Source: a virus
Virus record (IMG/VR): IMGVR_UViG_3300030101_004648
Location: 1-28,349 of that record
DNA length: 28,349 nucleotides
Reading direction: 5' to 3' (one strand)
Shown in pieces: positions 3,531 through 28,349 of the stretch. Each line of letters starts with the position of its first letter. Positions within the stretch are counted from its first letter, which is position 1. The notes under the pieces were generated by a model. That model made no database searches. It saw only the letters and a program-made list of their open reading frames with translations, and was not told where the DNA came from. The position numbers and the translations under genes were made by a program.

Positions 3531-3558
3531 TATATACATAGCGTGCCCACGTTCGCAA
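3531..3558 (-). promoter_or_regulatory. Candidate reverse promoter for the cargo gene
   Basis: Read on the minus strand: TTGCGA (3558-3553), a 16-base spacer, then TATATA (3536-3531). It lies back to back with the capsid promoter within an alternating TA tract (3519-3540). Support is by hexamer match and spacing only. Confidence 0.4.
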
Positions 3559-3613
3559 CGGTAAAAGCTGGAAAGGGCGGCAAAAAACTACACACAATAC
3601 AAGGAGGCACATT

Positions 3614-4543
3614 ATGCCGTCAATCAATCCAATTAGTTTTGCCAATATGTCCGGCAATTTACGTCTTGCACAAATGATAAGCATGGAATTGTCTTTGCTC
3701 ATCCGTGACAGCGTATCACTCAGAAACACACCATATGTTGAATACTGCGGTAGTATTAACGGCATGGGAAGTAACACAATTAGAAAAAGGCTTGTCGGGC
3801 TTGGTCGTACTGCCATGAACAATATCGCAGAGGGCGGCACAGCCACAGCCGTTGGCCTTGACGTCGAAACCGCAGATGTAACCGTAGCACGTCAAGAGCT
3901 GGCGTATGCAATTACAGACCTGGCAAACATGTCGCAATTTGGTCAAGATGTCGACCCCATCGTAATTGCCAATAGCATGGCGGCCGCTTATGATGCGCGC
4001 TTTATGGAATTGACTGTAGCGGCTGGAACTTTTACTACTGCAAAGGGTTCCACAGGTGCCACTTTTAGCACAGATGCTTTTTTCGACGGAATCTACGTAT
4101 TAGAGCGTGCAGACAGCGAACGCGGCGCAAATGGCCCATTCGTCGCGGTTTTAGCCAGTAAGGCCCTCACAGAACTGCAAACGGATTTACGTAACGAAAC
4201 CAGCAATTCCATATCCTTAATGCAACCAGTTGCAGACATGTTGCAAGCACGTCCGCAAGGCATGGTAGGTTCATTGTTTGGCGTAGATGTTTACAAAACA
4301 TCTCACATTGATGGTAGCTCCGGACATTTTGACAATCTTATGTGGTCTGCCGGTGCTCTCGGATATGCAGATGGTGCAGTAGGTCAAATTCTTGGTGCAG
4401 ATGGTCAAGTACAAGCCGGACCCGTAACCGTGGAATTCGTGCGTGACGGTCTGAGCGCGACCACCACGGTACTTGGACACGGGTACCTTGGAATTGCAAA
4501 GATAATTGATGCCAAAGGCGTGAAAATTCAATCCGTAGCTTAA
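3614..4543 (+). CDS. Major capsid protein (HK97-fold type)
   Basis: A 309-residue protein with the strongest ribosome site in the window (AAGGAGG at 3601-3607), as expected for the most abundant virion protein. Early residues (LRLAQMISMELSLLIRDSV) form the N-arm or spine-helix start. The GRTAMNNIAEGGTATAVGLD region is the typical E-loop/P-domain entry, and the VARQELAYAITDLANMSQFG stretch matches the spine helix of many HK97-like capsids. The A-domain would be in the C-terminal third, with GSLFGVDVYKTSHI and GHGYLGIAKIIDAKGVKI near the end. It follows terminase, portal and scaffold on the circle and precedes the connector and tail genes. It lacks an evident N-terminal delta domain, which agrees with a separate scaffold. 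No search was run; the call is from pattern and context. Confidence 0.85.
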   Translation: MPSINPISFANMSGNLRLAQMISMELSLLIRDSVSLRNTPYVEYCGSINGMGSNTIRKRLVGLGRTAMNNIAEGGTATAVGLDVETADVTVARQELAYAITDLANMSQFGQDVDPIVIANSMAAAYDARFMELTVAAGTFTTAKGSTGATFSTDAFFDGIYVLERADSERGANGPFVAVLASKALTELQTDLRNETSNSISLMQPVADMLQARPQGMVGSLFGVDVYKTSHIDGSSGHFDNLMWSAGALGYADGAVGQILGADGQVQAGPVTVEFVRDGLSATTTVLGHGYLGIAKIIDAKGVKIQSVA

Positions 4544-4551
4544 TTTATTTT

Positions 4552-4636
4552 GTGCGCAGGGGGTTAGGCTTAATCTCCTGTGCCACGGTAACCCCTTTGC
4601 GCACCTTTTAAAATAATAGCATATAAAACAGGAGAT
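4552..4636 (+). promoter_or_regulatory. Hairpin with anti-Shine-Dalgarno loop after the capsid gene
   Basis: Left arm 4552-4566 and right arm 4589-4604 pair over 15 positions (GTGCGCA with TGCGCAC, then GGGGTTA with TAACCCC, one bulge and one G-U). The 22-base loop contains ATCTCCTGT (4573-4581), the exact reverse complement of ACAGGAGAT (4628-4636), which is the ribosome site of the next gene at 4640. Loop-to-site pairing would form a pseudoknot-like fold and block ribosomes. The hairpin is followed by only four T residues, so a partial terminator is an alternative or additional role. Confidence 0.6.
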
Positions 4637-4639
4637 GAT

Positions 4640-5290
4640 ATGCAGATGACTAATTACGATACAATAGCACAGCCATGGGCAGAGACGCCCAACAGGGTAA
4701 AATTGCCAACGTTGGCCAATGCGCCTTGGTTTTATGCTCACCACCCACTATCATGGGACGTAGTAGAATTTAAAAAAGTTGAACACGTTACAAAAAACAA
4801 AAAGGTAACGCAAGTAGAAACAACGAAGTTTTTGCTATTGCCAAAGGTTGAGAAAATACCAATGGTGCCAGGCGTTAACAATGTAAGAGATGGTGGGGAT
4901 TTGGCTTTGATGCGTGGACAAATGCACAAAGAAGGTTGGGTAATTTTAGAACCACAGGACCATAATTATATAAATGTATATCCATGCCGCAATGGTAAAT
5001 ATTTCGCGCCTAGATTTACCAAAATGGAAACTTTAGCAAATCAATTGATACAAACATTTGACCATGAAGAATTTAACGAATGGCGAAAAAACCTAATTGC
5101 ATCACACAAAATAGCTTTGCCACATGAGCACGTTTGCAGACTAATGCAAATTGAACTAGAGCAAAAAATTAACAACTTGAAAGACACACACCTACCACAT
5201 ATGCAGGTCAAACAGCAAAAAATTAGCAATAGCATTGCCAACTTGAAAGAAGCAATAGAAAACGCCAAACAGGTGCAAAATTATGTCTAA
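4640..5290 (+). CDS. Conserved-looking capsid-neighbour protein, unknown function
   Basis: A 216-residue protein directly after the capsid gene. ATG at 4640 lies 4 bases from GGAGA; a second ATG at 4646 is possible. The first half is mixed with aromatic residues (NAPWFYAHHPLSWDVVEF) and the segment LLLPKVEKIPMVPGVNNV, followed by MHKEGWVILEPQDHNYINVY and a Lys/Arg-aromatic part. I recall a similar pattern (a PGVNxV block, then a GWxIIxP-like block) in uncharacterised proteins next to phage capsid genes. Residues about 165-216 form a coiled coil rich in Gln/Asn/Lys. It may be a minor head or inner-capsid protein. Translation is probably gated by the hairpin upstream. Confidence 0.7.
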   Translation: MQMTNYDTIAQPWAETPNRVKLPTLANAPWFYAHHPLSWDVVEFKKVEHVTKNKKVTQVETTKFLLLPKVEKIPMVPGVNNVRDGGDLALMRGQMHKEGWVILEPQDHNYINVYPCRNGKYFAPRFTKMETLANQLIQTFDHEEFNEWRKNLIASHKIALPHEHVCRLMQIELEQKINNLKDTHLPHMQVKQQKISNSIANLKEAIENAKQVQNYV

Positions 5291-20850: not shown

Positions 20851-20872
20851 ACTTGTTGTACTGTGTTACACT
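20845..20872 (+). promoter_or_regulatory. Early promoter, copy 1
   Basis: TTGCAC (20845-20850), a 16-base spacer, then TACACT (20867-20872). It precedes a leader with the ATGAG-CTCAT hairpin (20879-20897) and ACAGGAGA. The -10 and the leader are repeated at 22572-22635. The -10 match is moderate, so the hexamers are a candidate only; the conserved repeat is the stronger evidence. Confidence 0.5.
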
Positions 20873-20921
20873 TAAAACATGAGAGACAAACGCTCATACT
20901 AAACAGGAGATTACAAATGAC
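20858..20921 (+). repeat. 64-bp promoter-leader cassette, copy 1
   Basis: 63 of 64 bases equal 22572-22635 (only 20866 T against 22580 A). It spans the -10 box, a hairpin with 5-bp stem, the ribosome site and the first codon and a half of the gene at 20917. Downstream coding sequence is not similar. A shared control cassette placed before two unrelated small genes. Confidence 0.95.
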
Positions 20922-22557: not shown

Positions 22558-22586
22558 TGGCACACTTAAAAGTACTGTGATACACT
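22558..22586 (+). promoter_or_regulatory. Early promoter, copy 2
   Basis: TGGCAC (22558-22563), a 17-base spacer, then TACACT (22581-22586). It shares the -10 and leader with copy 1, but the -35 differs from TTGCAC, so strength probably differs. Confidence 0.5.
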
Positions 22587-22635
22587 TAAAACATGAGAGA
22601 CAAACGCTCATACTAAACAGGAGATTACAAATGAC
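22572..22635 (+). repeat. 64-bp promoter-leader cassette, copy 2
   Basis: 63 of 64 bases equal 20858-20921, 1,714 bases upstream. It also controls a single small gene (22631-22825) ending in its own terminator. The 14 bases CATACTAAACAGGA (22609-22622) occur in reverse complement at 22855-22868, just past that terminator. Confidence 0.95.
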
Positions 22636-28109: not shown

Positions 28110-28349
28110 ATGGATGAAACAAACGAGAGTAAACCAACAGAACAAAGCTACAGTAAATCAGACGTTGAAAATATAATCAAGGACAGGATTGCAAAGGTAG
28201 CAAAGAGAGCAAACGAGGCAGAGGCAACTATCAAAGACCTGCGCGCGCAAATGGATAAGCAAGCGCAAAGCGTTGGCACTGTTGACATGCTTACACAGCA
28301 GTTGGCAGAGATGCAACAAAAACTACAAAGCACCGAGCAAAGATATGCA
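28110..28349 (+). CDS. Capsid scaffolding protein, N-terminal part (continues at base 1)
   Basis: The true start of the scaffold gene is this ATG, 15 bases after the portal stop, with an ACAGGAGA ribosome site at 28096-28103. The frame runs off the window end. Joined at the 99-bp overlap it gives a protein of about 211 residues (47 before the joint, 164 after). The N-terminal half is charged and heptad-like, rich in Lys, Glu and Gln, and predicted to be a coiled coil. The middle has a segment typical of phage scaffolds, and a Gln/Pro-rich linker precedes a basic C-terminal helix, the usual capsid-binding end. Portal before it and the head genes after it support the role. Scaffolds are not conserved enough to call by sequence alone, so the call rests on layout and coiled-coil character. 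Confidence 0.7.
   Translation, partial: MDETNESKPTEQSYSKSDVENIIKDRIAKVAKRANEAEATIKDLRAQMDKQAQSVGTVDMLTQQLAEMQQKLQSTEQRYA
28251..28349. repeat. Right copy of 99-bp terminal direct repeat
   Basis: Exact copy of bases 1-99. It lies inside the scaffold gene, and the reading frame from 28110 continues across the joint into the frame starting at base 1. Inference: circular closure of the assembly rather than a duplicated gene. Confidence 0.95.

Follow-up and report, generated by a model that had tools for sequence, protein, structure and literature searches.

An RNA hairpin directly after a phage capsid gene with a loop complementary to the next ribosome site: a candidate two-layer intercistronic element

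In the 28,349-nucleotide viral sequence analysed in this work (the window, meaning that whole stretch of DNA), a strong hairpin lies between the major capsid gene and a downstream gene encoding 216 amino acids, and nine bases of its loop are the exact complement of the ribosome site (SD) of the downstream gene. Tentatively, and with confidence just short of even, we favour an intercistronic RNA element that lowers the post-capsid gene with respect to the capsid in two layers: a hairpin present throughout the phage family, and an anti-SD sequence specific to one clade (the window phage and one close relative, L001). Phages need hundreds of capsid subunits and fewer copies of many of the neighbouring products, all from one late transcript; if true, the element would offer a small and testable case of the evolution of stoichiometry control, with a family-wide transcript-level form plus a clade-specific translational form.

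The flanking genes and the phage

The capsid gene (309 aa, plus strand, 3614-4543) was recognised from PHROG matches: the window protein itself matched a major-head PHROG weakly (PHROG 267, E 0.0048), and the assignment was made because 14 of the 16 members of the aligned capsid family matched PHROG 544, “major head protein” (best E 3e-8). The 216-aa gene (plus strand, 4640-5290), of unknown function, also follows the capsid gene in related contigs, and its product was aligned with 17 homologues encoded directly downstream of the capsid (18 phages). Its structural model was fair (alpha/beta, pLDDT 78.9) and the fold search with it matched nothing informative; the AlphaFold model of the capsid was unusable (pLDDT 35). 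No matches were obtained for either protein in Pfam, for the capsid among named phages, or for the capsid profile in the genome collection, and the 216-aa protein as sole query retrieved L001 only. Dozens of IMG/VR contigs carried the capsid together with its 216-aa neighbour, and the group of the window phage apparently consists of undescribed small phages (about 24-30 kb).

The two ends of the window are linked by an exact direct repeat of 99 nt (1-99 and 28251-28349) and a gene starting near 28110 spans the end junction, which makes it probable that the window is an entire genome, circular or permuted, of about 28,250 bp. A leader cassette, TACACTTAAAACATGAGAGACAAACGCTCATACTAAACAGGAGATTACAAATGAC, was duplicated at 20867-20920 and 22577-22633, before two otherwise different genes, and resembles an early promoter/leader, containing a small hairpin, that the two genes have in common. 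The segment ACGTTCGCAACGGTAAAAGCTG (around 3547-3570), which lies upstream of the capsid gene and includes a small inverted repeat (CGTT/AACG), was unchanged in L001 and may be a late promoter or a regulatory site.

Position, fold and parts of the hairpin

The capsid gene ends with a TAA codon at 4541-4543, and the hairpin (4552-4604) begins 8 nt past this stop, its outermost G-C-rich pairs ending at 4604. In the minimum free energy fold (-27.6 kcal/mol) its stem counted 15 bp and a single bulged nucleotide and was topped by an apical GGC/GCC, bearing out the position and stem length originally predicted. The fold had a z score of -2.05 for the 126-nt segment and of -5.1 for the intergenic body alone, and is thus the stable G+C-rich hairpin that characterises intrinsic terminators. 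The site was not listed by the terminator scan, whose rules accept only loops of up to 8 nt, and the Rfam scan of the whole window gave 0 covariance-model matches at the gathering score.

Three segments can be distinguished. Arm 1, the 5' arm GTGCGCAGGGGGTTA (4552-4566), is common to two alternative hairpins, named here states A and B. Arm 2, TAATCTCCTGTGC (4571-4583), is the loop of state A and the 3' strand of the 13-bp hairpin of state B, and contains the anti-SD sequence ATCTCCTGT (4573-4581). Arm 3, GGTAACCCCTTTGCGCAC (4587-4604), is the 3' arm of state A. The stem is followed by a weak U-tract, CTTTTAAA (4605-4612, 4 T in 8 nt), and by the SD of the 216-aa gene, ACAGGAGAT (4628-4636). 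The SD is also presented in the 13-nt loop of a weak hairpin (GCATAT/ATATGC, 4619-4643, -4.2 kcal/mol) which has the start codon in its stem; a similar weak fold was found in L001 (-4.1 kcal/mol), and it is a possible kissing-loop partner of the capsid hairpin. As the loop reads ACAGGAGAT on the minus strand, an SD-bearing minus-strand gene within the hairpin was considered, and was rejected for want of a start codon at a suitable distance.

Complementarity between the loop and the ribosome site

The nine-base, mismatch-free complementarity between the loop (4573-4581) and the SD (4628-4636), the core of the original prediction, was confirmed by the sequence: all nine pairs are Watson-Crick, and the duplex has a predicted energy of -12.6 kcal/mol, compared with -10.2 kcal/mol when the SD is paired to a generic 16S tail. 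A loop complementary to a downstream SD is the arrangement found in SD-sequestering H-type pseudoknots. Hairpin folds were computed as nested structures only; in our judgement the geometry would allow the loop:SD pairing in the form of either an H-type pseudoknot or a kissing loop, the former being tight (3-bp apical stem, 9-bp second helix and 3-nt first loop).

The SD core was also predicted to serve many genes of this phage, and this was found: ACAGGAGAT occurred six times on the plus strand of the window (0.15 copies expected on both strands), five of them preceding start codons as the ribosome sites of the genes starting at 4640, 7617, 20917, 21353 and 22631, which marks it as the consensus ribosome site of this phage. 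These five sites are exact targets for a different mechanism, in which capsid mRNA ending at the hairpin would display the anti-SD loop and act in trans on ACAGGAGAT messages, for instance shutting early genes late in infection, and the loop is the sole plus strand copy of ATCTCCTGT, the complement of ACAGGAGAT, in the window. A loop that matches one consensus SD, however, unavoidably matches the others, the partner in cis, at a distance of 47 nt, should have the kinetic advantage, and no sRNA family was matched in the Rfam scan of the whole window; we consider action in trans the least probable of the alternatives weighed here.

Several chance tests were made on the loop:SD match, all of them post hoc, devised after the match had been noticed. 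When the 21 nt between the stem arms were shuffled, a 9-nt match to the SD was obtained in 16 of 20,000 shuffles. Of the 33 gene starts in the window, that at 4640 alone had a 9-nt complement in the 100 nt preceding its SD region (the runner-up had 8). About 0.15 such 9-mers are estimated to occur by chance within 100 nt of any of the 33 genes, so the weight of the observation rests on the position of the match in the loop and on its conservation in L001.

Conservation in the close relative L001

L001 was the only close relative in the viral collection (capsid 91% identical; DNA identity of 74% and 70% in two aligned blocks), and three more capsid searches retrieved no relative between 45% and 91% identity. 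Despite this DNA divergence (~70-74% identity), the 20-nt block of the 5' arm (TATTTTGTGCGCAGGGGGTT), the loop 9-mer (within the unchanged ATCTCCTGTGCCA) and the SD (within the unchanged AAACAGGAGAT) were letter-identical, and the changes fell in the spacer and in the central part of the 3' arm (AACCCCTT to ATACTCCT). The loop:SD match is thus carried by two sequences only, with no compensatory change of loop and SD between them. In the viral contigs, a DNA pattern of arm plus loop matched the L001 contig (L022) and 14 others that looked unrelated and had no hairpin followed by a ribosome site, and were discarded. The exact 18-nt arm pattern was restricted to the L001 contig in the viral collection; two bacterial MAG contigs also matched it, in a set where several chance matches are expected.

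The identity of arm and loop in L001 exceeds the needs of pairing, as it would if the hairpin were a binding site for a protein (a phage or host regulator, RNase III or the capsid protein) and the conserved loop its recognition sequence. Such a site would leave unexplained both the exact SD complement and the wobble pairs that create it (see below), and the loops of more distant relatives had no common sequence, making this reading quite improbable.

Post-capsid hairpins in the wider family

The analysis was extended to 45 other distinct intergenic regions, from loci with capsids 38-45% identical. Including the window and L001, a hairpin was found between the capsid stop and the next SD in all 47 distinct regions (z from -2.4 to -7.4). 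Among the family stems, 26 different 5' arms were counted, and single stem positions showed as many as six standard pair types; this conservation of stems was judged from per-sequence folds, an approach biased towards finding stems, as the MAFFT alignment of the intergenic regions misaligned the hairpins and supported only 5 pairs. The 45 relatives had loops of 3-7 nt, as opposed to 12-13 nt in the window phage, and a loop:SD match never above 5 nt. The idea that the loop is kept in step with the SD therefore fails at this distance, and the predicted pseudoknot-type switch is supported in part: the pairing is exact and predicted to be strong, and both partners are unchanged in L001, but it is missing from the wider family. 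Comparison across related phages, the check proposed for it, gave the same divided result, identity in L001 and absence from the 45 distant relatives.

Since the distant relatives keep the hairpin without the match, pairing with the SD is not the general purpose of the hairpin. The sequences immediately past the stems point to a transcript-level role, which would be the more general explanation: at least 5 T in 8 nt were found in 35 of the 45 relatives, as against 20% of random positions in the same regions, and a T-run of 4 or more was present in 40 of 45. The U-tracts of the window and L001 were weaker than those of the family (4 T of 8 in each; longest run of 4 and 2, respectively). To judge from these sequences, the ancestral element looks like a leaky terminator or a 3'-end hairpin keeping the capsid's neighbour low, and the anti-SD loop is probably a translational addition in one clade. 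That the U-tract was weakened while the anti-SD loop appeared and was kept suggests a shift to, or the addition of, a translational layer.

The same data lend weight to a simpler reading, in which the hairpin is a plain attenuating terminator or mRNA-stabilising stem-loop and the loop:SD complement is coincidental. A hairpin in every relative, mostly with a U-rich tail and never with a loop:SD match, is what it predicts; post-capsid terminators have been annotated in other phages (PMC3765740, PMC3080317), leaky internal stem-loops have been shown to set stoichiometry in operons of Clostridia (PMC9045158), and coincidence is made easier by purine- and pyrimidine-rich arms, one strand being SD-like and the other anti-SD-like. 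It does not account for a loop of unusual length (12-13 nt vs. 3-7), for a 9-mer unchanged in L001 though the 3' arm drifted, or for a U-tract degraded in this clade, and the SD is not matched by the exact complement of arm 1 (see below). We regard this reading as a serious contender with roughly one chance in three, and retain the two-layer element as the preferred one.

In L129, L130, L135 and L148, four distant relatives belonging to another clade, the long hairpin has a 5' flank (GTTGTTA..GGTTGG) able to pair either with the hairpin's own 3' flank or with both sides of the SD (..AACC-GAGG-TAACAAC..), with predicted energies of -14.5 to -19.5 kcal/mol (z from -1.6 to -3.3). A possible alternative fold masking the SD is only a lead here, in low-complexity sequence; if true, the post-capsid hairpin would be tied to the next ribosome site in a second, independent way.

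A rival hairpin sharing the 5' arm

The original prediction described a single hairpin. Its stem was confirmed, but a rival hairpin using the loop segment had been overlooked: UAAUCUCCUGUGC (4571-4583) is complementary also to GCGCAGGGGGUUA in the 5' arm (4554-4566). The resulting state B is a 13-bp hairpin with the tetraloop GGCU, extended by UUAUU/GGUAA (4545-4549/4587-4591; TTATT and the GGTAA of arm 3 in the DNA). As arm 1 is common to both, states A and B are mutually exclusive. The two folds had similar energies in both phages. In the hairpin region of the window A was favoured (-27.6 vs. -22.4 kcal/mol for B), and in that of L001 B was favoured (-26.5 vs. -25.7 kcal/mol for A); in the most stable fold of L001, state B concealed the loop segment, and the SD was paired instead with 4-5 nt of arm 3. 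In silico, therefore, the element is bistable with an A/B balance that differs between the two phages, neither state being the favoured one in both. In the outer part of state B, one pair showed a compensatory change (U-A in the window, A-U in L001). In folds of growing prefixes of the window sequence, B was best up to ~60 nt from the stop codon and A thereafter.

Pairing with arm 1 does not by itself produce the SD match: a strand exactly complementary to arm 1 would match the SD over 4 nt only. It takes two G-U wobbles in state B to make arm 2 a 9-nt anti-SD, and just 4 of the 512 wobble variants reach 9. The rival hairpin alone was obtained in 40 of 20,000 shuffles, and an SD duplex together with a rival hairpin, both at least as strong as those observed, in 1 of 20,000. 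Arm 2 has the features that a strand under two pairing demands should have, a resemblance short of proof of function; it would be a case of one pyrimidine strand able to serve two partners through G-U wobbles.

Proposed mechanism

For the family layer, the strong hairpin just past the capsid stop would most likely be a leaky intrinsic terminator and/or a 3' end protecting the capsid mRNA. The clade layer (window phage and L001) would be translational, with arm 2 complementary both to the SD and to the 5' arm. During RNA synthesis, arm 1 would pair first with arm 2 (state B), and the SD would stay free; once arm 3 emerges, arm 1 could swap to it (state A), exposing arm 2 in the 12-nt loop. The exposed arm 2 might then form an H-type pseudoknot or a kissing loop with the SD, which lies 47 nt downstream, and block ribosome loading. 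A ribosome reaching the end of the capsid gene would interfere with arm 1 and could tilt the A/B switch. Termination, SD blocking, the order of events, the effect of the terminating ribosome and that on the capsid-to-neighbour ratio are what we infer from sequences and predicted folds.

A more elaborate version is conceivable, though we consider it unlikely: that in one clade the post-capsid terminator evolved into a bistable switch, whose transient 13-bp hairpin leaves the SD open until refolding exposes the anti-SD loop and closes it. The neighbour would thus be timed and limited by capsid transcription or translation itself, and the exposed loop may also act on other ACAGGAGAT messages.

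Comparison with known systems

Terminators have been reported downstream of gene 10 in a T7-like or related podovirus (PMC3080317) and downstream of the capsid protein gene in a phage (PMC3765740). What the window shares with these T7-like and related podoviruses (e.g. phiIBB-PF7A and JG068) is a hairpin that immediately follows the major capsid gene, interpreted there as a (partial) terminator. The element of the window differs in its tail of only 4 T, in a 12-nt loop complementary to the next SD and in the competing second hairpin, and there is no recognised relationship between those phages and the window phage. In ABC importer operons of Ruminiclostridium, internal leaky terminators set the stoichiometry (PMC9045158); as in those operons, a stem-loop with a long G+C stem and a short U-tract separates a highly needed first gene from less-needed followers. 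Those elements act through termination and RNA stability only, and are not known to include an SD-pairing loop (PMC9045158).

In translational class I preQ1 riboswitches, a hairpin loop pairs with downstream nucleotides containing the SD and translation is lowered (PMC11625349). The window hairpin resembles these H-type pseudoknots in having a loop complementary to a downstream SD; it differs in being intercistronic, in its much longer first stem (15-18 bp) and 9-bp SD helix, and in having no known aptamer (no Rfam match) and nothing to suggest a ligand. In attenuators and bistable leaders, one arm is common to two mutually exclusive hairpins and the choice between them sets the state of a downstream signal. 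Unlike these, the element described here has no leader peptide; the ribosome acting upstream would be the one that completes the capsid gene, and the arm shared by the two hairpins is the first.
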